A stretch of 49,037 nucleotides of DNA, from the NCBI GenBank assembly GCA_026692845.1, contig JAPLNM010000018.1:1-49037 (forward strand), written 5' to 3'. Positions 4,738 through 48,119 of the stretch are shown here, one piece after another (position 1 is the first letter of the stretch; each line of letters opens with the position of its first letter). The position numbers were made by a program, and so were the translations under genes. The stretch comes from Planctomycetota bacterium (GTDB taxonomy: Bacteria > Planctomycetota > Planctomycetia > Pirellulales > Pirellulaceae). The notes under the pieces were generated by a model, which was not told where the DNA came from, did not search any database, and was given only the letters and a program-made list of their open reading frames with translations.

Positions 4738-4773
4738 CTGTTTAGAAATCTGTTTAGAAATCCGTTTAGAAAT
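4738..4773. repeat. 12-bp tandem repeat, three copies, between MFP and RND genes
   Basis: Units ctgtttagaaat, ctgtttagaaat and ccgtttagaaat follow one another in the 81-nt gap between the two efflux genes, ending 4 nt before the MFP stop codon. One of many short tandem duplications in this window. Confidence 0.9.
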
Positions 4774-4777
4774 CGCA

Positions 4778-6019
4778 CTACGGGTTGTCCTGCCAAACGC
4801 GAACGCGGCACTGCGAATCGATTCGCTGGACCCCAGCGCTGACGATTAGGTCGCCGGGCCGCAAGGCACCCAGGACCGATGCACACTGGTTACCGTATTT
4901 GAGAATCTTGACCGAGACGGCTTGCACCTGGCCTTGTTCGCCGATTTTCCAGACGATCGGAGTGGATTGCGATTGGGCGATTGCCCCCATCGGGACCAAG
5001 AAGCCTTGGTCCTCCTGACGATCGATCACTACGTTGGCACTCATTCCAATAGCGAGATCCACGGGGGGATCGACCAGGGTGAATCTCGCATCGTAGGTCC
5101 TCGATGACGGGTCGGCGATCGGCGAGATCTCGCGCAGTGTGCACGCGACTTTGATTCCGGGGATCGACCAGAATTCGACGAATGCTTTGTTGTTTTGAAC
5201 CGAAGGTTGCATCGATTCGGGAATACTCACGGCCGCTTCGAGTTCGTTGCCATGGACCCACTGAAGCACACTTTGGCCGGGGGTAATGACTTGTCCTACC
5301 TCGGCCATCAATTGGGTGACCAGTCCGTCTTGATCGGTCGTGAGTTCTGAGTATTGACGCTGGTTTTTAGCGAGCGTCTCGCGGTTGCTGGCGGCTTGCA
5401 AACGAGACCTTGCGGTGTCGCGGGCTGCGACGGCTAGATCATGATCGGATTGACTTGTAGAACGGGTTTTGATCAAGTCCGCCAAGCGTTGCTCCTCGGC
5501 CTCGATCTGCACGAGTTGCGATCTAGCGGCGGCCAAGTCGGCTTGGGCGACCTGAAGCTGCAAGTCAAAGTCGGTCGGATCGAGTCGGAAGAGGATCTGG
5601 CCTTTTTTGACGTGCTGTCCGACTTCGACGAACCTCTCGACGATCTTTCCTGCCACTCGAAACCCCAAGAGGCTTTGGTAGCGGGCTTGAAGCGTTCCGG
5701 AAAAAGAACGTTGCCCAGAAAGCGTCAGGCTAGGGTCGGGAATTTGGTAGGCTCGAACCAACAGCTCGGTTCCGTTTTGCAAACCCGTAGTGACCGGATT
5801 TAGCGAGCCGAGGGGCTCGGCGGTTTTGTGCGAAAACAGCATGAAACCAGCCAGCAACGCCAAAAGCATTCCTGCAGCAGTCCATCGCATCCAACGACTC
5901 TCGATGATTCCGCTGGGACCAGGCGCAAGTTCTTTCGAATCGTACAAATCGCCGTAGACGAACTCGCGGGGCTCTGCTGGGGAATCGGCATCCTGGTTCA
6001 AAGGAAGCAGTTGGCTCAT
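4778..6019 (-). CDS. RND efflux periplasmic adaptor (membrane-fusion protein)
   Basis: This 413-residue HlyD/AcrA-type adaptor links an RND pump to an outer-membrane channel. A membrane anchor lies at about 46-64 (TAAGMLLALLAGFMLF) after a polar cytoplasmic leader; there is no lipobox. The barrel-sandwich (lipoyl-like) half motif GFRVAGKIVERFVEVGQHV lies at about 119-137. An alpha-helical hairpin (LQVAQADLAAARSQL onward) and beta-barrel strands follow (IGMSANVVIDRQ). The ATG at 6019 overlaps the tetR stop by 4 nt (ATGA), which fixes the start; the longer open frame upstream is a shadow of tetR. It is co-transcribed with tetR upstream and the RND permease downstream. Confidence 0.9.
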   Translation of the reverse strand: MSQLLPLNQDADSPAEPREFVYGDLYDSKELAPGPSGIIESRWMRWTAAGMLLALLAGFMLFSHKTAEPLGSLNPVTTGLQNGTELLVRAYQIPDPSLTLSGQRSFSGTLQARYQSLLGFRVAGKIVERFVEVGQHVKKGQILFRLDPTDFDLQLQVAQADLAAARSQLVQIEAEEQRLADLIKTRSTSQSDHDLAVAARDTARSRLQAASNRETLAKNQRQYSELTTDQDGLVTQLMAEVGQVITPGQSVLQWVHGNELEAAVSIPESMQPSVQNNKAFVEFWSIPGIKVACTLREISPIADPSSRTYDARFTLVDPPVDLAIGMSANVVIDRQEDQGFLVPMGAIAQSQSTPIVWKIGEQGQVQAVSVKILKYGNQCASVLGALRPGDLIVSAGVQRIDSQCRVRVWQDNP

Positions 6020-6750
6020 CGGTGCTCTCGCTGAATTTGTTCGAATTGAGGATAGAACTCGGCGGAAATCTCGTCGACCATCTCCAAATACTCGTCGACG
6101 GTGTGAATCGGTTGCCAGTCGAACCCGTTGAGCAACCGACAGCAATGAATCCTGGTCGATCGGATCGGATCGATGATGCCGAGGGCTCGGAGCGAGGGGC
6201 TGCTGGCCGTGAGGATTTGGGATCCAAAAGTGATCGCCCAAAGACCAAAAACCATTTCCTCCGGGGACATCCGCTCGACGGTCGGCAAGTCCCCGAGCGT
6301 TTGGCCCTCGCGGACCAACTCGCTGACGATTTGCATGCACCCAGCCTCGCAGTTGCGAATCAGCGTTTGGCAATCGGCCGAGGATTTATTCCAGATGTTC
6401 GATTGTCGCATCCACTGCTCGACCTGAAACTCCTCGGCGCAGCGTTGCGTGTAAAACTCGCTGGCCAGCCCTATGGTCATCAAACGCATTCGCGCGGGCC
6501 TGAGTCCGCTGGCGGCCTTTTCGAAGAGCTTGTGTCTCAGTCGCATCGCCTCGTGGGCCAGCGACAAGACAATCTCCTCTTTGTTCGAGAAGTGGCCATA
6601 GATGGTCCCTTTGGCATACTGCATCCGCGAGGCGACGCGATCCATCGTCAAGGCTTGGATCCCTTCGGCTAGCAAAATGGGCTTGGCCACGCGCAGGATC
6701 TCCCGCGTGCGCTCCTGAATTTCCCGCTGTTTGCGTGTAAGTTCGACCAT
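6016..6750 (-). CDS. TetR-family transcriptional repressor
   Basis: This 244-residue protein begins with a typical TetR DNA-binding domain: ILRVAKPILLAEGIQALTMD, then RVASRMQYAKGTIYGHFSNK, with the helix-turn-helix at about residues 31-53. A helical ligand-binding and dimerisation domain follows. The start at MVELTRKQRE (6750) fits the family; an upstream ATG at 6813 would add 21 residues and read through the operator. It is first in an operon with the MFP and RND genes and overlaps MFP by 4 nt, so it most likely represses its own efflux operon. The inverted half sites directly upstream support this. The inducer is unknown. Confidence 0.9.
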   Translation of the reverse strand: MVELTRKQREIQERTREILRVAKPILLAEGIQALTMDRVASRMQYAKGTIYGHFSNKEEIVLSLAHEAMRLRHKLFEKAASGLRPARMRLMTIGLASEFYTQRCAEEFQVEQWMRQSNIWNKSSADCQTLIRNCEAGCMQIVSELVREGQTLGDLPTVERMSPEEMVFGLWAITFGSQILTASSPSLRALGIIDPIRSTRIHCCRLLNGFDWQPIHTVDEYLEMVDEISAEFYPQFEQIQREHR

Positions 6751-6752
6751 TG

Positions 6753-6775
6753 CGTCAATTATTGACGTCGCGTCA
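6753..6775. promoter_or_regulatory. Probable TetR operator (three alternating half sites)
   Basis: CGTCAATTATTGACG (6753-6767) is a perfect 15-bp palindrome with 7-bp arms around one central base. Its right half TGACG also pairs with a third half site, CGTCA at 6771-6775, across 3 nt. The array begins 3 nt before the chosen tetR start codon. That leaves no room for a ribosome-binding site and suggests a very short leader or leaderless mRNA with an operator over the promoter. The inverted repeats are visible in the sequence; the function is inferred from position. Confidence 0.65.
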
Positions 6776-6950
6776 GATTTAACAAGTTCCAAATTGGCCA
6801 AGATTGTCCACAAAACAGAGAATACGTCTTGGGATTTCTGGGGTATAAAAAGGGGATCAGGCCTTATCCATGGGATCCTCGGTTCGCCTAACGATTCTGG
6901 TCGGCAATTGCTTGATTCAAAACATTCGCTTTATTCAGGGGTTTTCTGCG

Positions 6951-7916: not shown

Positions 7917-7969
7917 TCGTGAGCCGTCGAGGCCTCCGCTGATCCCCTTTAACGATCCATGGTCTTTCG

Positions 7970-9694
7970 ATGGCTATTCCTCGCGTTGCAATTGTTGGCC
8001 GACCCAATGTCGGCAAAAGTTCGATCTTTAATTGGCTCGATGGTCGCCGCCTCGCGATCGTCGAAGACTTTGCCGGGGTGACCCGAGATCGCCTTGCGAC
8101 CCTGATCGAACATGAAGGTCGCCACTTCGAATTGGTCGATACCGGAGGAATCGGTATCGAGGACGTCGACAACCTGACCGATCAAGTCGAAATGCAGATC
8201 CTTACGGCCATCGAAGAAGCCGACGTGCTGCTCTTTGTCGTCGACTCTCGCAGCGGATTGGTCCCCCTGGACTCCGAAGTGGCCAATCGACTCCGAAAAG
8301 TCAACAAACCGATTTTGCTTGTTGCCAACAAAACCGACAGCCAAGCCCAAGACTCCAACGCCGACGAATTCCATCGCCTCGGATACGGCGATCTGATGCG
8401 CGTGAGTGTTCAGCAGAATCGATACAAGTCCGATCTGCTAGCCTGGATCATCGAGCACTTACCTGAATTCGACGCGTCGGCCGAGGAAATCGACCCCCCG
8501 ACGATGAAGGTCGCTATCGTCGGTCGACGAAACGTAGGCAAAAGTACCTTCGTCAATACGCTAGTCAACGAGGAACGATGCATCGTCAGCGAAGTCCCAG
8601 GCACGACTCGCGATAGCGTCGATGTGATGTTCGAACTCGATGCCCACAAATTCATGGCCATCGATACCCCAGGGCTACGCCGAAGCAAAAGCGTCAAAAC
8701 CAACATCGATTGGTATGGAACCCACCGTGCCCAACGCAGCATCCGACGCGCCGACGTGGTGCTCCTGTTCTTCGATTGCACCGAGCAGATGAGCAAAGTC
8801 GATAAACAACTCGCTCACTACATCCACGATGAGTTCAAACCCTGCATTTTCGTGATCAACAAATGGGACAAGCTCACCGGCCAAATCCCCACCGAGCGCT
8901 GGGTCGAGTACGTCCGCGAGAACTTTCCGACGATGGCCTACTGCCCGATCGCTTTTGTCACCGGACAAACAGGCAAAAACGTCAAAACCCTCCTGAACCA
9001 TGCTCAAATGCTCTTCAAGCAGTCGAAGGAACGGATCCCGACAAGCATGCTCAATAAGCTCGTTCAAGCCGCCCTGGAAAGGCATGAACCCCCACTCTAC
9101 CAACTCAATCGCCCCAAGATCTACTGCGCGACCCAAGTCGCTTCGCAACCCCCTACCATCGTTCTGGTTTGCAACCAGCCTCAAGGCTTCACAAACCAAT
9201 ACCGGAGGTACCTGCTGAACTTCCTCAGAGACCATCTCCCGTTTGGCGAAATTCCAATCAAACTCTTTCTGCAGCCTCGCAAAAGAGATGATGAACGGGA
9301 TGAAATCCAAACCCATCAACGTCCAAGTCGCAACGCCAAGGCCGGCGAGCAATGGGAAGGGGCCTTCGACGACCAAGAACTCGGGACGGGCTCCTACGGC
9401 GATTCGGGCTTCGAAGACGTCGATCTCGAAGATGCCGATCTTGAAGAAGATGAGCTTGAAGAAGATGAGCTTGAGGATGATGAGCTTGAGGATGATGAGC
9501 TTGAGGATGATGAGCTTGAGGATGATGAGCTTGAGGATGATGAGCTCGAAGAGGATGAGCTTGAGGATGATGAGCTTGAGGATGATGAGCTTGAGGATGA
9601 TGAGCTCGAAGAGGATGAGCTCGAAGAGGATGAGCGTGAAGAGGATCAAGCCATCGAAAATCCCAAGAAAAAGACTGACGGCACCCCAGAGTAA
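7970..9694 (+). CDS. der: Ribosome-assembly GTPase Der (EngA) with long acidic tail
   Basis: Der is an essential GTPase for maturing the 50S subunit. The 574-residue product has two G domains in tandem. Domain 1 shows GRPNVGKSSIF, DTGG and NKTD; domain 2 shows GRRNVGKSTFVN, DTPG and NKWD. A KH-like domain follows, including the region around YQLNRPKIYCATQVASQPPT. Typical Der proteins end near here at about 440-490 residues. This one continues with about 75 residues of repeated ELEDD/ELEED pentapeptides and a short basic end (NPKKKTDG). Everything up to the tail looks intact. Confidence 0.96.
   Translation: MAIPRVAIVGRPNVGKSSIFNWLDGRRLAIVEDFAGVTRDRLATLIEHEGRHFELVDTGGIGIEDVDNLTDQVEMQILTAIEEADVLLFVVDSRSGLVPLDSEVANRLRKVNKPILLVANKTDSQAQDSNADEFHRLGYGDLMRVSVQQNRYKSDLLAWIIEHLPEFDASAEEIDPPTMKVAIVGRRNVGKSTFVNTLVNEERCIVSEVPGTTRDSVDVMFELDAHKFMAIDTPGLRRSKSVKTNIDWYGTHRAQRSIRRADVVLLFFDCTEQMSKVDKQLAHYIHDEFKPCIFVINKWDKLTGQIPTERWVEYVRENFPTMAYCPIAFVTGQTGKNVKTLLNHAQMLFKQSKERIPTSMLNKLVQAALERHEPPLYQLNRPKIYCATQVASQPPTIVLVCNQPQGFTNQYRRYLLNFLRDHLPFGEIPIKLFLQPRKRDDERDEIQTHQRPSRNAKAGEQWEGAFDDQELGTGSYGDSGFEDVDLEDADLEEDELEEDELEDDELEDDELEDDELEDDELEDDELEEDELEDDELEDDELEDDELEEDELEEDEREEDQAIENPKKKTDGTPE
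9422..9646. repeat. 15-bp tandem repeat inside der (acidic pentapeptides)
   Basis: Fifteen consecutive 15-bp units encode DLEDA, DLEED, then mostly ELEDD or ELEED, ending in EREED. Several central units are identical or nearly identical (gagcttgaggatgat), pointing to recent slippage or unequal exchange. The repeat also keeps a long frame open on the opposite strand, which is an artefact. Confidence 0.95.
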
Positions 9695-9714
9695 GACGCA
9701 AAGGAGTAGGTTCC

Positions 9715-10584: not shown

Positions 10585-10641
10585 CGGCCCGAGAACCACT
10601 ATACTGGAACGCTCTTCCAGGAAATCTCGGGACGATCGACC

Positions 10642-12098: not shown

Positions 12099-12469
12099 AG
12101 TTCCGATTCGGCCTTGCGATGCAGATAAGCTTCCCGGCGATAGAGGAACGTCGGCAAAGCGAAGCAGATTCCGACCAAGAAGATCGCAGCGAAATGCCAA
12201 GCAAACCCGCCGATCCCTAACCGCTTCGACTCGTGCGCCATCCAAATCGTGCAGGCCGTCGCAGTGAGCATCAAGTCCCAACTGAAGCCGGAGATCACCC
12301 AGGTTGCAAACGGTGCGGCAAAGAACTCAGGCCAAGCCTGCTGACCGGCCCTGGTAAAATGGAGCCCGAAGCAAACCATCGGCAGGATCAATCCAGCCAA
12401 GGCCAAAATCGCATAAACGTGTCGAATACCCACGGACGAGTCCCTTTCGAGCAAACGGTTCGGGTCCAC
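12095..12469 (-). CDS. DUF2834 small membrane protein
   Basis: This protein of about 124 residues has three hydrophobic helices and resembles DUF2834. Matching features are YAILALAGLILPMVCFGLHF, FFAAPFATWVISGFSWDLML, then ESKRLGIGGFAWHFAAIFLV and a final SFALP-like FALPTFLYRRE. No function is established for the family. The frame can start at GTG 12469 or at the GTG 13 codons later (VGIRHVYAIL). The first lies inside a 13-bp tandem repeat, so the later start is equally plausible. It converges on the HTTM gene, sharing 4 nt. Confidence 0.7.
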   Translation of the reverse strand: MDPNRLLERDSSVGIRHVYAILALAGLILPMVCFGLHFTRAGQQAWPEFFAAPFATWVISGFSWDLMLTATACTIWMAHESKRLGIGGFAWHFAAIFLVGICFALPTFLYRREAYLHRKAESEL

Positions 12470-12493
12470 GGTTCGGGCCCACGGTTCAGGTCA
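12455..12493. repeat. 13-bp tandem repeat, three imperfect copies
   Basis: Units acggttcgggtcc, acggttcgggccc and acggttcaggtca are contiguous across the possible start of the DUF2834 gene, making its 5' end ambiguous. Confidence 0.85.
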
Positions 12494-12526
12494 GTACCCG
12501 ACAACAGCGACCGCAACTGCTCAATC

Positions 12527-12550
12527 ACTGAATTACTGAATTACTGAATT
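12527..12550. repeat. 8-bp tandem repeat, three copies, at the DUF1501 stop codon
   Basis: actgaatt is repeated three times in a row and runs into the stop codon of the DUF1501 gene (12549-12551). Confidence 0.9.
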
Positions 12551-14015: not shown

Positions 14016-14068
14016 CGGTGCAATTCCATCGCTTGGGGATTCAAATTCGTTCCTACCATCGACATCGG

Positions 14069-16621
14069 TTAACGGACATACTGGAATTCAGGCAGCATCA
14101 CAACCGACCACAAGATATCCTCGAGTTCGGTCCGTTCCAACGTTGGTCCAATCATTTCATCGATGGTCTGGAGCTCCTCGGTCCGAGGATGCCGACTCAG
14201 GGCGTGCATGTAGATTCGATCGATCAGTTCGCGTGTTGGAGCTTCACGGGTTGGAGTTTCACGGATTGTTTGGGCGTCTGCATTGAGCGATGCTCGGCGC
14301 GCATTCCAAAGATCGGCCCCGTGCGCGAGCCAATCGGCAAGCGTTTGGCCGTTGGACAAGTCCATCGCTTCGAGCGTCGTGAGTTCCGTCGGTCGCATGC
14401 TGACGATTTGGTCACGGTTGGGTCGCCCGAGGCTTCGCATCAGCGGATCGGCCTTGATCAACGAAGCGCGTACCATTGGCCCGTCGAGTGGTCCGCGAGC
14501 CAGTCCCATCGCGATTTCGTTTTGCAAACGTCCAGCCCATGGCCCATTGGCGACGACCGCCTTCTTCCAATCGCTGATCCCGTCGGCGAGCTTGCCTTGG
14601 GCATCGAGGGCCGAGGTGCTATACGTCCATCGGTCGGAGGAAGCGATCGAGACGGTCCCCTGCGGATCGATGAGTTTCATCTCGAAATACAACGCGGCCG
14701 GGTTCGGGCCGCTCCCGCCGTTGGTCGCTTCGACCAGGACGACGTTTTGGCCGACTCGCAGAGCCGAAATTGCGTCGAAGCTCTCTAGGCTTTCCCAGTT
14801 TTTGTCTTCGGCAATCAATCGCTCGTTGATCCACAGACGGTATTCGTTGTCGCAGGTGATCACGCCGAAGGCTTGGCTCGGAAGCTTGTCGAGCGTAAAG
14901 CTCTGCTTGAGTGCGATTTTCTCGCCAGCGGGAGGACCGCTTGGCGATTGGACGGTATCCGACCAGATCCATGCTCCAATGGGATCCGTAGGTTTTGGAT
15001 TCCCAGCATCAAGCCCGATGGATTTGCCTCGCACAATGGGAGCATCGAACTTGCTCGGCGCCGCTCCGGTCAGTTGCCAGAGCGTATCGACAAACTGTTC
15101 GGCGGTCATCCTCCGTGCCCGGGGGCCTTGGTAGGCATAGGCCACCGAGGATTCCTTTTCCTCGAGCCGTTCGGACTCGGCTCGGTAAGCCTCCGAGGAG
15201 GCGATCGTAAAGAGTAGCTCCTTGAGGTTGTAGCCTTGATCGACAAAGTCGACGGCCAAGTGATCCAGCAGATCCTCGTTCCAAGGTTGAGTTTGCATCG
15301 CATCGGTGGGATGGACGATCCCGTGTCCCATCATGCGGTGCCAAAATCGGTTGACGATCGTTCTGGAAAATCGGCCGTTTTGAGGGTGGGTCATCAAGCC
15401 TGCGAGCTGCTTCAATCGCTCCGGTTGGGGTGCTTGGGCGTCGATATTTCCAAGCTCTTCAAAGAGCCAATTCGGACTTGCCGTTTGTCCAATCGGTTTA
15501 TCGCACCGATGGATCTGCAGAGGGGTGTTTGAATAGACAGCGGCCAGTCCATAAGCGTCCTTGAGGGTCCAGCGATCGATGAAGCTATCGTGGCAAGAGG
15601 CGCATTTGAGGTTGATCCCAAGAAACGTTTGTCCGAGACTCTGCGCGAACTGAATTTCGACCGTTTGCCCTGCGCTGACTTCACCACGCCACCGGATGCC
15701 GTTTGCAAAACCGGCACTTTCGCCAGACGCTGGGGCGATCAGCTCCCGGGTCATCGCATCGTAAGGCTTGTTGTGAATCAAAGCCTCGTAAAGCCACTTG
15801 GAGATTTGCGTCCGCCCCCCGGTGATAAAGCCGGTTCCGGAGTAATCGTTTCGCAGTTGATCGTTCCAGAACGTCAGCCAATGCTCGGTGTACTCGAGAT
15901 CCTTATTGAGCAAAGAGCGAATCAGTTTTGGACGCTTGTCAGCCGAAGGATCGGCGAGGAACTCTTCGGTCTGCTCGGGGGTGGGCAAGAGTCCAATCAG
16001 ATCTAGGTACACGCGGCGAACAAAGGCCTCATCCTTGATCGAGCGGAGCGGTGCAAGCGACCGAGCGGCTCGGTCGGCATCGAGGATACGATCGATCGGA
16101 TGGGTCCGATCAGGCGAACTCGGGGCAGGAAGCTCGGGGCGCCGAGGCAGCAGTGGAGGATCGTAGCTTTGGGCGCCAAACGAGAATCCTTGTTCCCAGG
16201 GTAGACCGGCCTGGACCCATTGCGCGACGTCGGCAATCTGCGATTCACTCAGCCCTGGACCCTCTGGGGGCATCCGCAGATCGGGATCCTTGGTACTGAC
16301 CCTAGAGAGCAATTCGCTCATGGACTTGTCGTTGCTGAGCACCTCGGCGCCGGATTCGCCTCCGGCGAGCATCGATTCTCGCGAGTTTAGCGACAGGCCA
16401 CCTTTCTTTTGATCCCCCGTATGGCACTCGGCGCAGTGTTTTTTCAAAACCGGCAGAATCTTGTGAGCGAAATCGAAAGGCTCCTGGCCGATCGCGGCGT
16501 TTGGCGTGAAGCCCAGCGTTAGCGTAAAGCCCAGCGTGAGCGTAAAGCCCAGCGTGAGCAAACAGCCCAGGGCAGTAGGCAGCAACAGAGCAAAAGGTCG
16601 GACGGTAATGGGTTTAAGCAT
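14069..16621 (-). CDS. PSCyt1/DUF1549/DUF1553 cytochrome-like protein (pair 1)
   Basis: This 850-residue exported protein has the order signal peptide, PSCyt1 cytochrome-like domain, DUF1549 (PSCyt2), a central region and DUF1553 (PSD1). The first CxxCH haem-type motif is KHCAECHTGDQKKGGLSLN (C63, C66, H67). A second lies in LKCASCHDSFIDRW. The DUF1549 start is RRVYLDLIGLLPTPEQTEEF and the DUF1553 part includes NRFWHRMMGHGIV and RRMTAEQFVDTLW. The signal peptide core is built from three LTLGFT repeats. It heads an operon with the DUF1501 gene. The electron donor, acceptor and substrate are unknown. A sharp -10 box lies about 115 nt upstream of its ATG. Confidence 0.9.
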   Translation of the reverse strand: MLKPITVRPFALLLPTALGCLLTLGFTLTLGFTLTLGFTPNAAIGQEPFDFAHKILPVLKKHCAECHTGDQKKGGLSLNSRESMLAGGESGAEVLSNDKSMSELLSRVSTKDPDLRMPPEGPGLSESQIADVAQWVQAGLPWEQGFSFGAQSYDPPLLPRRPELPAPSSPDRTHPIDRILDADRAARSLAPLRSIKDEAFVRRVYLDLIGLLPTPEQTEEFLADPSADKRPKLIRSLLNKDLEYTEHWLTFWNDQLRNDYSGTGFITGGRTQISKWLYEALIHNKPYDAMTRELIAPASGESAGFANGIRWRGEVSAGQTVEIQFAQSLGQTFLGINLKCASCHDSFIDRWTLKDAYGLAAVYSNTPLQIHRCDKPIGQTASPNWLFEELGNIDAQAPQPERLKQLAGLMTHPQNGRFSRTIVNRFWHRMMGHGIVHPTDAMQTQPWNEDLLDHLAVDFVDQGYNLKELLFTIASSEAYRAESERLEEKESSVAYAYQGPRARRMTAEQFVDTLWQLTGAAPSKFDAPIVRGKSIGLDAGNPKPTDPIGAWIWSDTVQSPSGPPAGEKIALKQSFTLDKLPSQAFGVITCDNEYRLWINERLIAEDKNWESLESFDAISALRVGQNVVLVEATNGGSGPNPAALYFEMKLIDPQGTVSIASSDRWTYSTSALDAQGKLADGISDWKKAVVANGPWAGRLQNEIAMGLARGPLDGPMVRASLIKADPLMRSLGRPNRDQIVSMRPTELTTLEAMDLSNGQTLADWLAHGADLWNARRASLNADAQTIRETPTREAPTRELIDRIYMHALSRHPRTEELQTIDEMIGPTLERTELEDILWSVVMLPEFQYVR
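14235..14264. repeat. 15-bp tandem duplication in the PSCyt gene (pair 1)
   Basis: gttggagcttcacgg is followed directly by gttggagtttcacgg. On the coding strand this gives RETPTREAPTREL, a short duplicated linker in the C-terminal part. Confidence 0.85.
16503..16568. repeat. 18-bp tandem repeat in the PSCyt signal peptide (pair 1)
   Basis: Three 18-bp units (16515-16532, 16533-16550, 16551-16568) plus a partial one encode the hydrophobic core as repeated LTLGFT on the minus strand. The repeat lengthens the signal peptide without breaking the frame. Confidence 0.92.
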
Positions 16622-20476: not shown

Positions 20477-20506
20477 CAGGCAACTTAGCCGCAGGCAACT
20501 TAGCTG
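20477..20506. repeat. 15-bp tandem duplication between mqnC and hisS
   Basis: caggcaacttagccg is followed by caggcaacttagctg. The second copy overlaps the 3' end of the convergent hisS gene and contributes its stop codon. Confidence 0.88.
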
Positions 20507-21846: not shown

Positions 21847-22426
21847 TTGGGATGGATTTTTCGGTTCGGGAGTTTCGGATTCGTGGGCCTTCGAGGCCGA
21901 CGGCGATTATAGGAAAGAATCACCGAGAGGACCAAGCCTGTTTGGAAAAGCGATCCCACCGCCTCGCGTCGGGCTTGCCCCGGCGGAAGGCGGAACTAAT
22001 AGCTACAAGCCGACCAAGCCGGTGCTCGTCTGCAAAACCCCTCCATGCCTTTAATTATTCCAAGAGTTTTTCGAACTACCCCAACTTAGACACCTGGTTT
22101 TTGAGAGTGCAACTGCTGCCCAAAAAGCGAGCACCTTTAAAACACCCCCTGTTTTGGGCAGTGCGCGATTTATGGGCAGTGCTATCAAATAGGCGTAAGT
22201 TATTGCCAGCATTGATGTTGCGACAAGGGGCTTGCCCGCTGCGGCAGTATTGTCTCGAGTCCGCCGGAAGGAGCCTTGGGATTCGCTGAGCGAGCGAAAG
22301 AGGGGAGCCGTCAAGGTGGAGGATCGGTTCCCGCGTACGGTCGGCGGGGGCTTGGTCGCTCTCGACCAGAACTGACCTTGTCATTTGCAGCCATCGCACC
22401 GAGAGGTGCCAGGAAGGTAATTTGTT
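21847..22426. other. 580-bp region without a credible gene
   Basis: No frame here looks protein-coding. A 10-bp perfect inverted repeat CTGCCCAAAA / TTTTGGGCAG (22116-22125 and 22152-22161) encloses 26 nt. GGGCAGTGC is directly repeated at 22156-22164 and 22174-22182. The region could hold the hisS promoter on the minus strand, the promoter of the 22427 gene, or an unrecognised small RNA; none could be pinned down. Confidence 0.5.
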
Positions 22427-23505: not shown

Positions 23506-24174
23506 ATGGCATCCCCTAAAAAATCTCCCTCTTTAGGCCCCATCGACTTAGGCCCCATCGACACCCCGTTGACCTATGCGGTCTTGCTGGAGCTCTCGCT
23601 CGGACTCGCTGCGATCTTGCTCGGCGCATTCCTGGGTATCAACCCCCGCCAACACTTACCTGCTTGGTGGGATTTTACGGGGATCCTTAAAAGTTTCGGG
23701 ATCGGGCTTACCGTCGGCTCGGTCCTGGCTCTTGGGATGGAGTTTGTCTCCAGGCTCCCGATCCGCTCGATTCAGAAACTCGATCGCGTGGTTCAGTCGC
23801 AGCTTCACATGCTGCTCGGACCGATGAGCATCCCGGAATTGGTCCTTTTATCGCTCAGCGCCGGGATCGGCGAGGAGTTGCTCTTCCGAGGGTTGATTCA
23901 AGGCTGGTGGATGTCGCTTTCCGAAACCCAAACGTCTTTAGAGGCGCTGCCTGGGATATTGCTATCGGCCGTCTGCTTTGGCTTTGCGCATCCTTTGAGT
24001 AAAGCCTATATCGCCATTGCCACTTTGGCCGGCATTTTGTTTGCCGTCCTGTACTGGGCGACCCGCGATTTGCTCGCGTGTGTCTTGGCGCATGCAATCT
24101 ACGATGCGATCATTTGCGTCTATTGGAAATGGACCCAAGCACAACTCGAGCGGAAGAATCGAACCGATGTTTAG
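23506..24174 (+). CDS. CPBP-family intramembrane metalloprotease
   Basis: This 222-residue integral membrane protein carries the CPBP (CAAX prenyl protease 2/Abi) motifs. These are IGEELLFRGLIQG (E123, E124, R128), a histidine in CFGFAHPLSKAY (H162) and a late histidine in VLAHAIYDAII (H196). These residues bind catalytic metal in Rce1-type enzymes. Around six hydrophobic helices are visible. Roles of bacterial members range from bacteriocin immunity to protein maturation; the substrate is unknown. The N-terminus contains a duplicated LGPID. It begins right after rnpB and overlaps the next gene by 8 nt. Confidence 0.88.
   Translation: MASPKKSPSLGPIDLGPIDTPLTYAVLLELSLGLAAILLGAFLGINPRQHLPAWWDFTGILKSFGIGLTVGSVLALGMEFVSRLPIRSIQKLDRVVQSQLHMLLGPMSIPELVLLSLSAGIGEELLFRGLIQGWWMSLSETQTSLEALPGILLSAVCFGFAHPLSKAYIAIATLAGILFAVLYWATRDLLACVLAHAIYDAIICVYWKWTQAQLERKNRTDV
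23533..23562. repeat. 15-bp tandem duplication in the CPBP gene
   Basis: ttaggccccatcgac occurs twice back to back, encoding LGPID LGPID just before the first transmembrane helix. Confidence 0.92.
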
Positions 24175-38599: not shown

Positions 38600-41512
38600 A
38601 TGTTCCACCTTCAATATCTTCCTCCGCACGCTTTTCGCATCGGGATCCTGTCCCCTGCTCTGCTGCTGCGTGCATCAATTCTCCTGCACCTGTTGGTTCC
38701 GGCCTCCGTTTTGGTTCCGGCCTCCGTTGCCGTGGGTCAAAGCCCGATTGCCCAAAACTCCGACGCGTTCGAAACCCATATCCGACCGCTCCTTGCCGAA
38801 AAATGCTTCTCCTGCCACGGACCGGTCAAGCAATGGTCCGGTCTGCGAGTGGACTCGGCACCAGCCCTGGCAAAAGGGGGGGAATCGGGCCCCGTTGTCC
38901 TTGCCAAACAACTCGAATCGAGCCCTCTGCTCGAACGCATCCTCTCGGATGACCCCGAGCTTCGGATGCCCCCGCCTGACTCGAAACTCACGCTGAGCCC
39001 CCCCGAAAAAGAATCTCTCAAAACCTGGATCCTCCAAGGTGCGTTCTTTCCTCCACAAACCAACCCGGACAACCCTCCCGAAAATATCCCCGATGCGATC
39101 CAAAAGAACGCCAAACTGCATTGGGCCTTTCAGCAACCCGTGCTCAAGCAACCCGTGCTCAAGCAACCGGTGCTCAATGAACCATCCAAAGACATATCGC
39201 GAAGCGAGCACTGGATCGATGCCTACCTCGATTCTTCGCTAGTGGACTTGGGTCTCGAACCCCTAGCATCGGCCGATCGACGCACGCAGCTTCGTCGCCT
39301 TCACCGTGTCGCGAGCGGATTGTCCCCCTCGTGGCAAGAAGTCCAGGATTTCCAAAACGACCAAACTTCGGACGCTTGGGAGAAAAACGTCGACCAGATC
39401 CTGTGCCAACCGAAGTACGCAGAAAAATGGGCCCGCCTTTGGATGGACATCGCTCGTTACTCGGATACCAAAGGCTACGTTTACGGACGCGAAGAGCGTA
39501 CCTTTGTCTTCTCACGAGCCTACCGCGACTGGCTCATCGAGGCTTTCCAATCCGATCTGCCCTACAACAGCTTCATCGAACTGCAATTGGCCGCCGATCA
39601 ACTCGTTCCTGCTGGCTCGAAGGACCTTGCGGCGATGGGATTCTTGACCCTTGGACGTCGCTTCCTGGCGATCCAATACGATATCATCGACGATCGGATC
39701 GATACGACCTTTCGCGCTCTGATGGGCCTGACCGTTCAGTGCGCCCGATGCCACGATCATAAATTCGATCCGATCAGCGCCCAGGACTACTATGCGTTTG
39801 CTGGGGTGTTTCAAAGCTGCATCGATCTTCGCGAGGAAATCCCAAACCACCTGCATCAGCAGACCCCTGCGTTTCAAGAAGGCCTCGCGCAGCGAAGAGC
39901 CAAGCTCCAAGAGCTCAGTGCCAAGCATCGCACCGAAGCGAACGATCGGATCCAAAAACGGTTTGCCGACTATCTCGAAACCCAAGTTCAAATCGAGAAG
40001 TACCCCGAAGGTAACTTCAACCAACTCTCGACCAAAGAGGACCTGATCCCGGCCTTGGTCCACCGCTGGGAATGGTACTTGGCCCTCGAACCGATCGCCA
40101 AGCACCCGGTCCTACGGATCTGGACCGAATTGTCGAAACTCCCCGAAACCGATTTTCCGAGCCGCGCTGCCGAAGTGCTCGCGATGCTCCGAGAGCAACC
40201 AGGAGCTTGCCACCCCGAAGTTCTCCAAGCCTTTGAATCTCTCCCGACGAGCCTCCGCGATGTCGCAGATCGCTATGGAGCCCTCGTCGAAAAAGCCTCG
40301 GTCCGATGGCAAGCCGAACTGGCCCAACCCGGCAGCAGTCCAGAGCGATCCCAAGACTCCTTGCTCGAACCCCTGCGGGCTGTGCTCCTAGACCGTCAGT
40401 CTGCCTTCTACATCCCCGACGAACCGATCGACAGCACCGAATGGCTCTGGGACAACGGCACGTGCGTCGAAATCTGGAAAGCCCAAGCCGATATCGATCA
40501 ATGGCTCATGCAAGCCAACGAGTTTCCCCCCGAACTGGGAATTCTCCGAGACCGCTCCCTGATCAGCGATGCGAGAATCCTCAAACGCGGTAACGCCAAC
40601 CTCAAGGCCGATGCGGTCCCCCGGAGTTTCTTCGAGTTCTTCGATTCCGATCCACCCGCCCCTTTCCAAAACGGAAGCGGTCGATTGGAACTGGCCCGAC
40701 GAATCGCCTCGAGCGACAACCCCCTGACGGCTCGCGTTTGGGTCAACCGTATTTGGCAAGAAGTCTTTGGTGAAGGGCTCGTCCAAAGCACCAGCGATTT
40801 CGGACTGCGTTCTGATTCACCCTCGCATCCCGAACTGCTCGACGCGCTGGCACTAGCGTTCATCGAACACGATTGGAGCACCCGATGGCTGATCCGCGAA
40901 CTGGTCACGACCGAAGCGTTCCGAAGACAATCCTTCGGTGTCAGCGCCCTGGCCCAGGAAATCGATCCTGCGAATCGAATGCTTTGGCGAATGAATCGCC
41001 ATCGACTCACTTGGGAGGAATCCCGCGACGCACTCGCGGGGCTGAGCGGAATGCTGATCCATCGCATCGGCGGCAAATCGGTCGATCCACTCGCGAGCGA
41101 CGAAACCGCATTGGCCCGACGCTCCCTCTATACGACCATCGACCGACAGTACTTGCCGATGACCCTGCAGAATTTCGACTTCGCAAACCCCGACATGCAT
41201 AACCCTAAACGCTCCGAAACCGTCGCGCCCCAACAGGCACTGTTTCTGCTGAACCACCCGATGCCCGCCCAAGCGGCCCGAAAACTCGTCGGACTCATCG
41301 AACGCTCCGATCCCTCCAAACCATCCGATTCCGACTTTATCACCGCCCTGCACCGACGGGTGCTGCAACGCGACCCGAGCCCCTATGAAATGGAACTGGC
41401 TCTGGAGTTCCTCAAACAAAACACCGAAGCGTCCGATCCAAAGTCCCTCTCGCCTCGCGATCAGTTGGCCCAAGTCCTACTGATTGGCAACGAGACGATC
41501 TACATCGATTGA
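38600..41512 (+). CDS. PSCyt1/DUF1549/DUF1553 cytochrome-like protein (pair 2)
   Basis: This 970-residue exported protein has the same domain order as the 14069-16621 gene. A signal peptide is followed by the CxxCH motif EKCFSCHGPVKQWSGLRVDS (C69, C72, H73) and the segment DDPELRMPPPDSKLTLSP. The DUF1549 part contains WARLWMDIARYSDTKGYVYG and a second haem-type motif, VQCARCHDHKFDPISAQDYY. The DUF1553 part contains ARVWVNRIWQEVFGEGLV and NRHRLTWEESRDALAGLSG. Compared with pair 1 it has a longer central helical insert (about 430-650). It heads an operon with the DUF1501 gene 19 nt downstream. The substrate is unknown. Confidence 0.9.
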   Translation: MFHLQYLPPHAFRIGILSPALLLRASILLHLLVPASVLVPASVAVGQSPIAQNSDAFETHIRPLLAEKCFSCHGPVKQWSGLRVDSAPALAKGGESGPVVLAKQLESSPLLERILSDDPELRMPPPDSKLTLSPPEKESLKTWILQGAFFPPQTNPDNPPENIPDAIQKNAKLHWAFQQPVLKQPVLKQPVLNEPSKDISRSEHWIDAYLDSSLVDLGLEPLASADRRTQLRRLHRVASGLSPSWQEVQDFQNDQTSDAWEKNVDQILCQPKYAEKWARLWMDIARYSDTKGYVYGREERTFVFSRAYRDWLIEAFQSDLPYNSFIELQLAADQLVPAGSKDLAAMGFLTLGRRFLAIQYDIIDDRIDTTFRALMGLTVQCARCHDHKFDPISAQDYYAFAGVFQSCIDLREEIPNHLHQQTPAFQEGLAQRRAKLQELSAKHRTEANDRIQKRFADYLETQVQIEKYPEGNFNQLSTKEDLIPALVHRWEWYLALEPIAKHPVLRIWTELSKLPETDFPSRAAEVLAMLREQPGACHPEVLQAFESLPTSLRDVADRYGALVEKASVRWQAELAQPGSSPERSQDSLLEPLRAVLLDRQSAFYIPDEPIDSTEWLWDNGTCVEIWKAQADIDQWLMQANEFPPELGILRDRSLISDARILKRGNANLKADAVPRSFFEFFDSDPPAPFQNGSGRLELARRIASSDNPLTARVWVNRIWQEVFGEGLVQSTSDFGLRSDSPSHPELLDALALAFIEHDWSTRWLIRELVTTEAFRRQSFGVSALAQEIDPANRMLWRMNRHRLTWEESRDALAGLSGMLIHRIGGKSVDPLASDETALARRSLYTTIDRQYLPMTLQNFDFANPDMHNPKRSETVAPQQALFLLNHPMPAQAARKLVGLIERSDPSKPSDSDFITALHRRVLQRDPSPYEMELALEFLKQNTEASDPKSLSPRDQLAQVLLIGNETIYID
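38693..38728. repeat. 18-bp tandem duplication in the PSCyt signal peptide (pair 2)
   Basis: ttggttccggcctccgtt occurs twice in succession, encoding LVPASV-type repeats at the end of the signal peptide. Confidence 0.93.
39134..39178. repeat. 15-bp tandem repeat, three copies, in the PSCyt gene (pair 2)
   Basis: caacccgtgctcaag, caacccgtgctcaag and caaccggtgctcaat encode QPVLK QPVLK QPVLN in the linker between the PSCyt1 and DUF1549 domains. Confidence 0.93.
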
Positions 41513-41531
41513 AACCCTTAGAGGCCACTCC

Positions 41532-43396: not shown

Positions 43397-43410
43397 CGAT
43401 TGGAGTGTTT

Positions 43411-44787
43411 CTAGTTACCGACCAAGATCCGCAATCGCTCCCACGAATCCTCCGAGTCCATGATCGACTCGAGAGATTGCGCAAGAAATGCATCGATGTT
43501 CGGCTTGATCGCAATCGCTCGATCGATTTGAGGGTTTGAACCAAAACGGTAGGCCCCGATCTGAATCAGTTCGCGATGCTCATCGTAGATCGAAAGCCAC
43601 TTGCGAAGCTCGTTGGCCAGGGCGATTTGTCGCGCGTCGAGCAACTGTTGCTGCAGTCGGCTCAAACTGCGCAAGACATCGATCGCAGGATACTGCCCAC
43701 CATCGGCAAGCGACTTCGAAAGGACGATGTGCCCGTCGAGAAACCCTCGAACCGCATCGCTGATCGGTTCGTTGTTGTCGTCTCCTTCGACCAAAACCGT
43801 ATAGATCGCCGTGATCGACCCGCGAGCGCTGTTGCCAGCGCGTTCGACCAAGTGCGACAACGAAGAGAACACACTCGTCGGATAGCCCCGGGTCGTGGGG
43901 GCCTCGCCCGCAGCAAGTCCGATCTCGCGCTGGGCCGTGGCAAAGCGCGTCAACGAGTCCATCAGAAGCAGAACCGATTTGCCTTGATCCCGAAGCGACT
44001 CGGCGATCGCCGTGGCCGTTTTGGCCGCAAGGATCCGTCTGGATGCCGATTGGTCGCTCGTAGCGACAACCGTAATCGATCGGGCTTGGCCCTCGGCGCC
44101 TAAGTCGTTCTCCAAAAAATCTCGGACTTCCCTGCCCCGCTCCCCAATCAATCCGATAACCACATAGTCCGCCTGCGTCCCTCGAGCAAGCATCCCGAGC
44201 AGTGTGCTCTTGCCCACTCCGGCAGCCGAAAAGATACCTACACGCTGGCCCTGGCCAATGCTCAGGAGCGTATCGATCGCCCGAACACCTGTCGGCAATT
44301 CGGTACGGATCGGCTTTCTCGATAACGGGGACACCGGCGGAGCATCGCAAAAGACGCGCCTGCCAGTGCCCATCGATCCTGCGTGGTCGATCGGGGTTCC
44401 CGTTGCGTCCAAGACCCGACCGCATAACTCCTCGGAGACTTTGATCGATCGGCAAGATTGCACCAGCTCCACAGGATCCCCGGCACGGACTCCCTCGAGG
44501 GAATCCAAGGCTGCCAGCAGAGTCCTGCCCTTATCGAACCCGATGACCTCGGCCTCTAAATCGCTATGCCCTTGGCGCACGATCCGCGTTACGGCGCCGA
44601 TGGCCAAAGGCAATCCATCGACAGCGATGATTCCGCCCTGAAGCAAGCACACACGGCCCTGGACTCGGTAGGGGATAAACCGTTGGATCGCTCCGTTCCA
44701 ATCCGAGCTTTTCGCAAGTCTCGGGAGCCTCGATGCGATCGCCGTAGATGGTGATTGCAGCGGTGTTTGCAGTGGTGTTTGTGTCAC
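43411..44787 (-). CDS. fliI: Flagellum-specific ATP synthase FliI
   Basis: FliI is the hexameric ATPase that energises flagellar type III export. The 458-residue protein has the F1-beta-like core: Walker A in GIFSAAGVGKSTLLGMLARG (about 184-203), LIGERGREVRDFLENDLG, Walker B in KSVLLLMDSLTRFATAQREI, and GEAPTTRGYPTSVFSSLSHL. The start is GTG at 44787, exactly adjacent to the fliH stop (TAAGTG). The N-terminus carries a duplicated TPLQ encoded by a 12-bp tandem repeat. Proteins of non-flagellar type III systems are similar, but the fliG neighbour argues for a flagellum. Confidence 0.95.
   Translation of the reverse strand: MTQTPLQTPLQSPSTAIASRLPRLAKSSDWNGAIQRFIPYRVQGRVCLLQGGIIAVDGLPLAIGAVTRIVRQGHSDLEAEVIGFDKGRTLLAALDSLEGVRAGDPVELVQSCRSIKVSEELCGRVLDATGTPIDHAGSMGTGRRVFCDAPPVSPLSRKPIRTELPTGVRAIDTLLSIGQGQRVGIFSAAGVGKSTLLGMLARGTQADYVVIGLIGERGREVRDFLENDLGAEGQARSITVVATSDQSASRRILAAKTATAIAESLRDQGKSVLLLMDSLTRFATAQREIGLAAGEAPTTRGYPTSVFSSLSHLVERAGNSARGSITAIYTVLVEGDDNNEPISDAVRGFLDGHIVLSKSLADGGQYPAIDVLRSLSRLQQQLLDARQIALANELRKWLSIYDEHRELIQIGAYRFGSNPQIDRAIAIKPNIDAFLAQSLESIMDSEDSWERLRILVGN
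44755..44778. repeat. 12-bp tandem duplication at the fliI N-terminus
   Basis: ttgcagcggtgt is followed by ttgcagtggtgt, giving TPLQ TPLQ on the coding strand. Confidence 0.85.
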
Positions 44788-45453: not shown

Positions 45454-45515
45454 GCCGAATACTCTAGTCCTGGAAGAAAAGGGTCAAAGGGCTCTACGGT
45501 CGGATGGGTGTGCTG

Positions 45516-46712
45516 CTAGGCAGGGATCCGTAGCGAAGTCTCGGGCTGCAATTCATGGGCGGTCTGTTCCATACGGCTAGCGATCTCTCGCCAAACCTTT
45601 TCCTCGACGATCGGTACGGCAGCCAACTCGCGCCGAAGTCTTTTCAGAGCGTCTGGAGCAGTGAGCTTCTCGATTCGCAATCGCATCGCCTTGTTCGCTC
45701 CTGCGAGAAATCGCTTGACGTCGTCGATGCTATGGCTGTAAAAAACGCGGAGCAAATCCAAATCATCGAGGCTCAGGAGTTGATCGAGCAATTCCTCGCG
45801 CCCCGTTTTGCGACGCAGCGGAATCACAAATGCTGGCACCGAATCCAAAGACGCCGGTCCTAGGCTAGAAGGGTTAGCCGAGAGAGCAAACGTTGAGGGT
45901 TGTCCTTCTGGACTTGCGTTGACGTTGGACATCTCGGTCCGTTCGACACCCTCGAAAAAACTCAAGGTCGTCGACTCGTCGGATACCTTTAGCACCGCGA
46001 GCAACTCGCGAACCTTCTCGTCCCTCTGATCCTTGCTCTGATTTGCGATGCTGACTTCTTGCACTTGAGACTCGATCCCCGAGAGAACCTCGCTGAGTAC
46101 CAATTCAGACGTCGGCGTTAACTTTGGGATCCAATCCAAGGCTTCCTTGGCCAGCCCGTGTTCGAGCCGTTGGACGATCGACTGACCAAGCCGACTAGGA
46201 ACATGCCTCAGGACCGTCGCAATGACGATGGGCCTTTGTTCACTCAATACGCTTGCAACGACCTCGATCGGCTGCGATTCAAGCAGGAGCGATCGTTCGG
46301 CTGAGTCTTTGGGCGGCAAACTGTGGGGTGCCTGCGGAACATCCACTGGCGTTTGCGCGAAATCCTGCGACGCTGAGACCTCTTGGAATTCGGAAATCCT
46401 TAGGGATTCGGGCTCAGGCTCCGACTCCATCAAGCCTTCGATCGTCTCCCAAGCCAAGCGGCGTTCTTGTTCCGAAACGTCCCCGAGATCTTCGATCTTG
46501 CGACGAACTTGAGTCGAAATCGATTCGGGCAAGCACTCGAGCAACAGCGCAGCATCCACCGTGTCCATTCCCTCGATGGCGATCGCAAGCAGGCGAATTC
46601 GATGTTCGGTCGAAGCTTCCATCAGCGACTTGCCGTCATGGCTCGTTGGGGGTTCGGATTCAAAAGATTCATCACGTATTTCATCGCTGCGTTTGTAGCG
46701 GAAATCCCCCAC
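45516..46712 (-). CDS. fliG: Divergent flagellar motor switch protein FliG
   Basis: This 398-residue protein matches FliG in outline. The N-terminal domain reads RIRLLAIAIEGMDTVDAALL. The middle domain reads VVASVLSEQRPIVIATVLRH, where the canonical EHPQ is EQRP. The C-terminal torque domain includes LDQLLSLDDLDLLRVFYSHS and LRIEKLTAPDALKRLRREL. The charged DD and R of the torque helix appear kept (SLDDLDLLRVF). A long low-complexity linker (about 110-150) and another near 270-310 separate the domains. The start is GTG at 46712, or possibly ATG at 46622 (MEASTEHRIRL). It is the first gene of the fliGHIJ cluster. Confidence 0.8.
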   Translation of the reverse strand: MGDFRYKRSDEIRDESFESEPPTSHDGKSLMEASTEHRIRLLAIAIEGMDTVDAALLLECLPESISTQVRRKIEDLGDVSEQERRLAWETIEGLMESEPEPESLRISEFQEVSASQDFAQTPVDVPQAPHSLPPKDSAERSLLLESQPIEVVASVLSEQRPIVIATVLRHVPSRLGQSIVQRLEHGLAKEALDWIPKLTPTSELVLSEVLSGIESQVQEVSIANQSKDQRDEKVRELLAVLKVSDESTTLSFFEGVERTEMSNVNASPEGQPSTFALSANPSSLGPASLDSVPAFVIPLRRKTGREELLDQLLSLDDLDLLRVFYSHSIDDVKRFLAGANKAMRLRIEKLTAPDALKRLRRELAAVPIVEEKVWREIASRMEQTAHELQPETSLRIPA

Positions 46713-46774
46713 GAAACGCTAGAGCGAATCTTGTTATGCTAGCTTTGAGTCTTGATCTGTGCGGGTCCTCTAGG

Positions 46775-46804
46775 CGGTTCTCCTGCATGCGGTCCTCCTG
46801 CATG
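46775..46804. repeat. 15-bp tandem duplication upstream of the OmpA-like gene
   Basis: cggttctcctgcatg is followed by cggtcctcctgcatg in the 144-nt divergent region between fliG and the OmpA-like lipoprotein gene. It could affect spacing of regulatory elements. Confidence 0.88.
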
Positions 46805-46856
46805 CGGTGGGCGGATTGGGGTTGCGAAAGGGTCGGCTTTGTTGCTATGCCACTGC

Positions 46857-48119
46857 ATGGCAAAAAACCAGAACGATGCACAACGAGCCGAGACCAGCCG
46901 GGCCCTTGATGGCTGTCGGGTTGGTCTTGCGTTTTTTCCAGCCTTGCACGTGCTGACTTTGTCTGGGTTGGTTTGCTTCTTTGGCCTGCTCGGCTGCCAG
47001 AAAAGTCAACCTTATTTGCTTGGAACTGCGCCGAGCTACCTACGTCCTTATAGCCCAGGCGCACCGCTGATCCTACCGGAGGGCGCACCGGTGGCTCAGA
47101 ATGGAGCTACGAGCCCCGCGCCCGTGGGGATGACACTGCCTTCGGTTGCATCCTCGTCGCCGTATTCCGCATCGCAGTCGACAGCACCACCATCTGCGGC
47201 CCCGGCGTCGATCGCATCGGCTTTTGGGTTCCCGAGTGGGTCTACAAATCCAACGAGCGACCCGGCTGGCTTTGGCTACGCAGCCCAGATTTCCGAGTTA
47301 GAGCGCAGAGCCAAGCTGCTTGACGAGAACAATCGCCAGCTTCACAGCCAGCTTGCTCAATCCCAGCAGCAAGTTCAAACCTACCGAGAGCGATCCGACC
47401 TGATGCAACAGCAGCTCGGGGATATGTCCGCACAGTTGCAACAAGCGCGGATTGCCGCGACGCGTCCAGCACCTTCGAATCCGACAATCGCAGGTCCGCC
47501 GACGTTACCCGGAGTCGGCTCCATGGCGACCACACGCCCTGCCCCAGCACCAACGAAGTACCCGTCCCAAACGCAGTACCCGGCTCAAACTCAAAACCTG
47601 GCCCAAACGCAAAACCCATCGCAACGCAGCGGTGCTCGACTCACGGCCAACACCAGTCGCCCCCCTGGATCGGGCAGTCCTTCTTCGATCGAACCGCTTC
47701 GTTCCTTGGGCTATCCGGTCGAAACCAACGGATCGAGCTTGCGCGTTCGCATACCGGCCGACCAGTTGTTCCAACCCGGTAGTTCGCAATGGACGGCCAG
47801 TGCAGGTTCTCTGTTGGAGCGAGTCAGCAATGCCCTTCGCACAGCGTCGCCCAACGCACAGCTTTTAATCGACAGCTACACCGATAATTCGACGTCGAAC
47901 CTCGCGACGGCAAGCAGCGCCGAGCAACTGACCTCCCAGCAAGCCGATTCGGTGATGCGATATTTCGTGTCGCGTGGTGGTTGGAATTCCAGCGGCGTGA
48001 CGATCCGCTCGAACGGTTCGGATGGACCGCTGATGGATAACCAGTCCCCGAGCGGTCGAGCCGCCAACCGACGCATCGAATTCCTCCTCAACGAGCCGCT
48101 CGCGAATGCGGATCGCTAA
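46857..48119 (+). CDS. OmpA-type lipoprotein (peptidoglycan-binding C-terminus)
   Basis: This protein of about 420 residues has a hydrophobic N-terminal segment ending in a lipobox (FFGLLGCQKS, C47). A Pro/Ser/Ala-rich low-complexity region follows, then a coiled coil (ISELERRAKLLDENNRQLHS, then QLAQSQQQVQTYRERSDLMQ). A degenerate YPSQTQ/YPAQTQ/NLAQTQ/NPSQ repeat comes next. The C-terminal OmpA domain includes SLRVRIPADQLFQPGSSQWT, LLIDSYTDN and QSPSGRAANRRIEFLL. It should sit in the outer or inner membrane and bind peptidoglycan. It is divergent from fliG, so a MotB-like or cell-wall role near the flagellum is possible but unproven. The ATG at 46857 was chosen to give the lipobox signal. Confidence 0.82.
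   Translation: MAKNQNDAQRAETSRALDGCRVGLAFFPALHVLTLSGLVCFFGLLGCQKSQPYLLGTAPSYLRPYSPGAPLILPEGAPVAQNGATSPAPVGMTLPSVASSSPYSASQSTAPPSAAPASIASAFGFPSGSTNPTSDPAGFGYAAQISELERRAKLLDENNRQLHSQLAQSQQQVQTYRERSDLMQQQLGDMSAQLQQARIAATRPAPSNPTIAGPPTLPGVGSMATTRPAPAPTKYPSQTQYPAQTQNLAQTQNPSQRSGARLTANTSRPPGSGSPSSIEPLRSLGYPVETNGSSLRVRIPADQLFQPGSSQWTASAGSLLERVSNALRTASPNAQLLIDSYTDNSTSNLATASSAEQLTSQQADSVMRYFVSRGGWNSSGVTIRSNGSDGPLMDNQSPSGRAANRRIEFLLNEPLANADR
47558..47617. repeat. Degenerate 15-bp repeat in the OmpA-like gene
   Basis: Successive units encode YPSQT, QYPAQT, QNLAQT and QNPSQ-like pentapeptides or hexapeptides in a linker. Copies differ more than in the other tandem repeats here, suggesting an older array. 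Confidence 0.65.

Follow-up and report, generated by a model that had tools for sequence, protein, structure and literature searches.

Why does a single stretch of planctomycete DNA carry so many short, back-to-back duplications of unrelated sequence? The window, by which we mean the whole stretch of 49,037 bp that was analyzed, comes from contig 18 (JAPLNM010000018.1) of a 5.24-Mb draft genome in 182 contigs (GCA_026692845.1, Pirellulaceae), the nearest relatives of which are mostly lake or pond bins named Pirellula or planctomycete. A sequence-only reading of the window had listed 13 tandem arrays and proposed a lineage-specific tendency to make and keep such duplications, for instance through slippage or a mismatch-repair trait. 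The tendency is real and lineage-specific, and it is probably mutational in origin. Our preferred reading, to which we give a probability of roughly one half, is a mutational habit of a freshwater genus of Pirellulaceae, strongest in one of its subclades, in which replicative misalignment would yield duplications of about 15 nt that are subsequently filtered by selection.

Arrays were counted by a strict rule, with units of 8–30 bp, exact copies for units of 8–11 bp and at most one mismatch for units of 12–30 bp; low-complexity arrays of period 1–7 were excluded from every array count. The window contains 14 such arrays, whereas 30 first-order Markov copies average 1.07 and never exceed 4. Beyond the window, two samples of the source genome, of 302 kb and 343 kb, held 61 and 103 arrays, respectively, which brings its density, window included, to 178 arrays in 689 kb, or 25.8 per 100 kb (masked bases are removed from this total). 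All stretches were chosen by contig number and not at random. Among other members of the genus, densities per 100 kb were 20.6 (G017), 18.9 (G018), 16.4 (G010), 14.4 (G009), 11.8 (G001), 11.5 (G002), and 9.3 (G006). A 12-kb stretch was taken from each of ten further members of the genus, and where it was the genome's sole counted locus it held 0 to 3 arrays. The outside comparison consisted of six genomes of the same order (GC 0.52–0.66, 660 kb), with 40 arrays in total and 3.7–8.8 per 100 kb in each, and of 100 kb of Escherichia coli K-12, in which no array was found. When 10-kb segments were tested against the six outside genomes (one-sided, uncorrected), the source genome without the window gave p = 2.9e-8, G017 1.5e-5, G018 and G010 5e-4, and G009 0.043. 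The excess is clear in four of the eight genus genomes of which at least 90 kb was sampled, and weaker in the rest.

Loci around the gene for the GTPase Der were surveyed in 80 named records, some genus loci of which overlap the genome samples. Their densities per 100 kb were 28.3 at a Der identity of at least 95% (3 loci), 22.8 at 73–89% (17 loci), 9.1 at 66–71% (12 loci), and 11.9 at 58–66% (48 loci). The lineage-specific tendency that had been proposed is borne out, with a wide gap to the six genomes of the same order and a smaller one to the last 48 loci. The units are also unrelated to one another, as had been noted: the top 5-mer, CCCAG, was the best at just 17 of 132 coding units, and a shared unit motif or dispersed repeat family was rejected as an explanation. 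The enrichment of CCCAG among coding units (3.9-fold) and of AGCCA among non-coding ones (3.3-fold) may reflect codon or spacer content.

Outside genes, the density reaches 47.4 arrays per 100 kb in the source genome, versus 6.8 in the six outside genomes. Exact duplications in the pooled non-coding DNA of the genus (256 kb), on which reading frame imposes no selection, numbered 19 with a 9-bp unit, 12 with units of 10–13 bp, 26 of 14–17 bp, and 7 of 18–21 bp, and the outside pool (238 kb) held 5, 6, and 3 in the first three of these classes. These pools leave out the stretches L222, L223, L226, L229, and L233, which overlap other samples, as well as L240 and L242. Simple slippage is expected to give a frequency that falls steadily with unit length. 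Instead of a smooth fall, the non-coding units of the genus show, in bins set post hoc, a second peak at 14–17 bp, which exceeds the 10–13-bp class with p = 0.017 (0.015 if arrays straddling gene ends are included). Slippage, as suggested by the sequence-only reading, would still be the most likely route, while the length distribution predicted by its simple form is not seen. The non-coding units peak at 9 bp as well, apart from the 14–17-bp class (19, versus 0.3 in the Markov control). In genes, 9-bp units were likewise above chance by a control of non-adjacent repeats (28 versus 10.1). Exact coding units of the genus numbered 14 at 12 bp, 48 at 15 bp, and 17 at 18 bp (15 over 12, p = 8.7e-6), so that the proposed enrichment at 15 bp is found in genes and, more weakly, at 14–17 bp in non-coding DNA. 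Together with the filter for reading frame described below, the two peaks are best read as a mutational length preference near 15 bp seen through that filter, with modest support outside genes, where the numbers are small.

Genes in the genome samples were called with a custom open reading frame (ORF) scorer that takes the longest-ORF start. Codon-preserving shuffles had been named, besides planctomycetes of similar GC content, as the comparison by which the tendency should be judged. The predicted genes of the source genome hold 117 arrays, as compared with 32–41 after a synonymous shuffle that keeps the protein and 9–22 after a shuffle of codon order (five of each). As counts drop under both shuffles, codon usage does not explain the arrays; the third or so that persists when the protein alone is kept is expected if duplications also created protein repeats. 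Coding units of at least 10 bp are multiples of 3 in 94% of cases in the source genome, and non-coding units in 13 of 33. This filter is equally strict inside the genus (0.93–0.97) and outside it (0.93), which bears on the possibility that no special mutational process exists and that weak selection in the genus merely retains ordinary duplications more often. The excess is indeed a relative one, since the outside genomes carry such arrays too, and the arrays occupy apparently dispensable places. However, with a frame filter this strict, a non-coding density about 7-fold above that of the six outside genomes, and 26 versus 3 non-coding duplications of 14–17 bp in similar amounts of DNA, we regard weak selection as possible but rather unlikely.

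The frame filter also speaks against an assembly artefact of metagenome bins, which would not be expected to respect reading frame. It is true that the source genome and most of its relatives are draft metagenome assemblies, that the single-contig member G006 reaches only 9.3 arrays per 100 kb, and that two contigs of G010 conflict at one place. Nonetheless, arrays of 30–45 bp are shorter than usual read lengths, and the excess recurs in several independently assembled bins, making an artefact very improbable. The conflicting contigs, C49 and C194 (L111 and L164), show differing states of a 42–44-bp stretch near the same junction, which could be within-population variation or a mixed bin.

Within proteins, arrays had been placed at the ends. 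This holds for the N-terminus, as 32 of the 117 array centers lie within 40 aa of it (13.3 expected, p = 2.5e-6), but not for the C-terminus (17, p = 0.31). The N-terminal bias is subject to the start calls: as longest-ORF starts were used, part of the excess could be DNA upstream of the gene. In the window itself, all 13 listed arrays were recovered at the expected positions, and 12 of them satisfy the strict rule, that at 47558-47617 being degenerate. The 14 counted arrays are made up of these 12, an unlisted one at 2756-2773, and the Der array, which was split and thus counted twice. The arrays are:

2756-2773: 2 x 9 bp, exact, in an AcrB-type transporter ORF (aa 642-647); missing from the earlier list.
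4738-4773: 3 x 12 bp, intergenic; the orthologous site in the relatives L111 and L224 has no array.
9422-9646, plus strand: 15 x 15 bp, LEDDE-like repeats in the acidic C-terminal tail of the GTPase Der.
12455-12493: 3 x 13 bp, intergenic.
12527-12550: 3 x 8 bp, directly beside the stop codon of a DUF1501 gene and in contact with it.
14235-14264, minus strand: 2 x 15 bp with one mismatch, aa 786-796 of a PSCyt1/PSCyt2/PSD1 protein.
16503-16568, minus strand: 3.7 x 18 bp, encoding LTLGFT repeats at aa 18-40, in a hydrophobic segment at the N-terminus of the PSCyt1/PSCyt2/PSD1 protein that also holds 14235.
20477-20506: 2 x 15 bp with one mismatch, between a radical-SAM gene and hisS, spanning the last hisS codons.
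23533-23562, plus strand: 2 x 15 bp, exact, LGPID twice, aa 10-19 of an Rce1-like protein.
38693-38728, plus strand: 2 x 18 bp, exact, LVPASV twice, aa 32-43 of a PSCyt1/PSCyt2/PSD1 protein.
39134-39178, plus strand: 3 x 15 bp, QPVLK repeats, aa 179-193, between the PSCyt1 and PSCyt2 domains.
44755-44778, minus strand: 2 x 12 bp, TPLQ twice, aa 4-11 of a FliI-type ATPase ORF (predicted start); shorter in G010.
46775-46804, plus strand: 2 x 15 bp with one mismatch, aa 8-18 of an OmpA-family ORF (predicted TTG start).
47558-47617, plus strand: degenerate 18-bp repeat in the linker upstream of the OmpA domain, same protein as 46775; 33 of 42 positions agree at period 18, with a Tandem Repeats Finder score of 69.

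Seven of the 14 counted arrays have 15-bp units (two of the seven being Der), and the unit is a multiple of 3 in all ten arrays that lie wholly inside ORFs (nine listed ones and that at 2756), in accordance with the sequence-only reading on both points. The arrays at 12527 and 20477 reach into a gene no further than its final codons or stop, and those at 4738 and 12455 are intergenic. The in-gene arrays sit in N-terminal segments (aa 4-43, in five ORFs), the PSCyt1-PSCyt2 linker, the linker before OmpA, and the acidic tail of Der. That they avoid catalytic cores was found to be true to the extent that none of the ten overlaps the best Pfam stretch of its protein; the proteins of 2756 and 14235 have a second stretch, which could coincide with the array, and that at 14235 may fall within PSD1, in its C-terminal half. 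In G010 and G017, the Der tail has exact repeats of 18 bp, not 15, which indicates that the same spot grew independently or was rebuilt. The 101-row array listing that includes this comparison still contains a run of masked N, as well as a 5-bp repeat to which period 10 was assigned. Elsewhere in the window, positions 21956-21997 give matches of 31–37 bases (89–94% identity) at several scattered places in G010 and G017, and are perhaps a dispersed repeat.

Copy numbers had been proposed for comparison between close relatives, and they differ between G010, G017, and other relatives. Across 65.7 kb, G010 and G017 share 93.4% identity and differ by 35 indel rows of 8–45 bp. Flanks diverged by at most 20% in 25 of these rows, which represent 24 sites, as one site occurs twice. 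Tandem duplications account for 15 of the 24 sites at a mismatch of at most 34%, a criterion that an unrelated insert passes in 0.4–7% of cases, depending on length. For polarization, 33 rows were considered, of which 19 had no third genome and the other 14 correspond to 13 sites. Two sites could be polarized by the source genome, a true outgroup, and both are gains in G017, of 8 and 9 bp. At five further sites, the extra stretch is missing in a third species (L224), which favors gain without proving it, as L224 is about as distant from G010 and G017 as these are from each other; six sites gave no direction.

The junctions of 150 simple two-copy exact duplications offer a view of how such copies may arise. 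Among those of 14–17 bp, microhomology of at least 3 nt was found at 5 of the 16 in non-coding DNA and at 9 of the 20 in genes, with about one expected in each set, and little excess was seen for in-gene units of 8–10 bp (7 of 59, with 3.1 expected). No strong junction consensus was detected, with only a C at position -4 (0.46 of 41 and 0.43 of 70). Direct repeats at 14 of the 36 simple duplications of 14–17 bp, with none at 12, could also be left by flap ligation, in which strand displacement lifts a 5' flap of some 15 nt that escapes cleavage and is joined by ligation, so that its length is duplicated, as has been described for yeast lacking FEN1. This would account for the preferred length as well as the partial microhomology. 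However, the PolA of the source genome (986 aa) has a 5'-nuclease domain (E = 1.9e-50) whose acidic motifs, read by eye, look normal by sequence, and the domain was present in 40 of 40 genomes searched, the source genome included. A loss of the PolA 5' nuclease is accordingly unsupported, and flap ligation, which together with weak selection is the chief competitor of misalignment, seems doubtful.

Many junctions without microhomology would instead be consistent with end joining of staggered breaks with fill-in, by Ku or by another route, and one G010 duplication allows two readings, 16 bp with an added base at the junction or 17 bp with one substitution. Yet no Ku match was found in any of the 27 genus genomes searched, including the source genome (drafts may miss genes); the nine positives among 60 genomes all belong to other families. 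Ku-dependent end joining was therefore rejected, and end joining by any route appears quite improbable. A loss of exonuclease VII was rejected as well, its large subunit being present in 59 of 60 genomes and in 27 of 27 of the genus.

Mismatch repair was the other cause that the sequence-only reading had offered, with mutS or mutL missing or altered. Both proteins appear intact in the source genome: MutS (871 aa) and MutL (672 aa) have the length of complete proteins, and by eye we recognized what we take to be the Walker motifs of the former and the ATPase and DQHAxxE motifs of the latter. Moreover, this repair acts mainly on loops far shorter than 15 nt, and we give its loss almost no credence. 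The probable linker of MutL (L001) itself bears tandem-like repeats, TAGF/PAGF. Among the relatives, G038 and G048 (same order, 99% complete) had no MutS_V match, and G004 and G012 (genus, 83% and 76% complete) had only the weaker match class.

A difference in polymerase content was found within the genus. Ten genus genomes carry a strong DinB match (PF00817), while one subclade (G000, G010, G017, G018, G005, and others, the source genome included) lacks it and shows, at most, a weak match within a frame of some 600 aa; draft genomes may lack genes through incompleteness. Array density is 22.4 per 100 kb in the 12 sampled genus genomes whose sole IMS match is weak, versus 11.7 in the nine with a strong DinB match (per-genome p = 0.032, one-sided). 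This comparison left out G003, G008, G012, and G013 (no IMS match) and the unsampled G025 and G026, and ten of its 21 samples are of at most 12 kb, apart from two of about 33 kb. In a tree built from Der alone, most of the absences belong to one subclade (G007 and G015 lie outside it, and G004, G019, and G021 are not in the tree), and shared ancestry hence accounts for the difference in density equally well. Three outside genomes without a canonical DinB match have a low density of 5.3 per 100 kb. As a cause of the high rate in the subclade, the absence of DinB is only a lead. It would fit a distinct error-prone duplication pathway in that subclade with a built-in step of about 15 nt, a speculative alternative that we consider unlikely. 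Such a pathway may stem from a changed translesion polymerase set, with no canonical DinB and at most a longer, putatively ImuB-like protein, and its new copies would often be imperfect from birth. If true, the subclade would have a constant supply of in-frame pentapeptide insertions.

Under the preferred reading of replicative misalignment, we infer that the growing strand slips backwards by about 15 nt during DNA synthesis (commonly 14–17, with a second class near 9), so that a stretch would be copied twice. Short microhomology would often help this step without being required. Loops of about 15 nt exceed those that MutS-type mismatch repair mainly handles, and would persist despite an intact MutS and MutL. 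Selection would then remove frame-shifting copies, and in-frame ones would stay, chiefly near N-termini and in linkers, tails, and spacers. Once two copies are present, further steps could alter their number, as may have happened in the acidic tail of Der.

Several observations weigh against this reading. In the segment test, G006 (p = 0.066), G001 (0.18), and G002 (0.36) were not significantly above the six outside genomes, and the 48 named planctomycete loci outside the genus leave a narrower gap than these six do. The 14–17-bp and 10–13-bp bins were picked after the counts were known, with a p of only about 0.017, and the outside genomes faintly favor a coding unit of 15 bp as well (3 at 12 bp, 6 at 15 bp, and 4 at 18 bp). 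By the non-adjacent control, 8-bp units in genes are at chance (20 versus 26.3). The copies in the tandem indels between G010 and G017 differ from each other more than their flanks have diverged (33/198 versus 107/1164), which implies that some duplications are old or were imperfect at birth. A third of the simple 14–17-bp duplications have no microhomology, and microhomologies of at least 8 nt may be partial third copies. Finally, no hairpin excess was found, with a mean energy of −0.264 per nt at 73 empty sites versus −0.280 at 219 random windows (p = 0.97; energies folded with RNA parameters).

Short tandem duplication is a main way to insert codons without breaking the frame. A genus with a several-fold excess and a preferred size therefore raises the questions of what sets the size of a slipped loop and why intact mismatch repair does not help, and makes the rate at which N-terminal segments, linkers, and tails evolve addressable. 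A connection with the unusual structural variation described in lake Planctomycetota (PMC9426551) is also conceivable.

The arrays share several traits with known slipped-strand mispairing, namely adjacent copies, changes in copy number, in-frame survival, and microhomology at some junctions. Slipped-strand systems, however, consist of few long-lived repeat loci, whereas here many two-copy duplications of unique DNA, with a unit near 15 bp, are spread genus-wide. Yeast lacking FEN1/Rad27 accumulates short tandem duplications with short flanking repeats. These are similar to ours, with the difference that the PolA 5' nuclease is present and normal-looking here. Microhomology-mediated tandem duplications of fungi, as far as their available descriptions go, are also tandem at microhomology, while those reported here are bacterial, often lack it at the junction, and have a length near 15. 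Close 10-mer repeats are mostly over-represented in prokaryote intergenic regions, and clustered octamers score high in Planctomycetes on one reading of the table columns (PMC4060949); the accessible parts of that work give phylum-level patterns and do not single out adjacent 15-bp duplications. Closest in phylum and habitat, lake Planctomycetota were found to have disproportionately many structural variants, and their non-coding deletions were frequently associated with tandem repeats in intergenic DNA (Okazaki et al. 2022, PMC9426551); the portions of that study available to us hold no unit length, genus, coding-frame analysis, or survey of repair genes. A search of titles and abstract openings returned no report of a 15-bp duplication preference in planctomycetes. 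Given the intergenic-repeat variation already described in lake members of the phylum, the phenomenon is partly known, and the length preference, the distribution across the genus, the frame filter, and the intact repair genes are added here.

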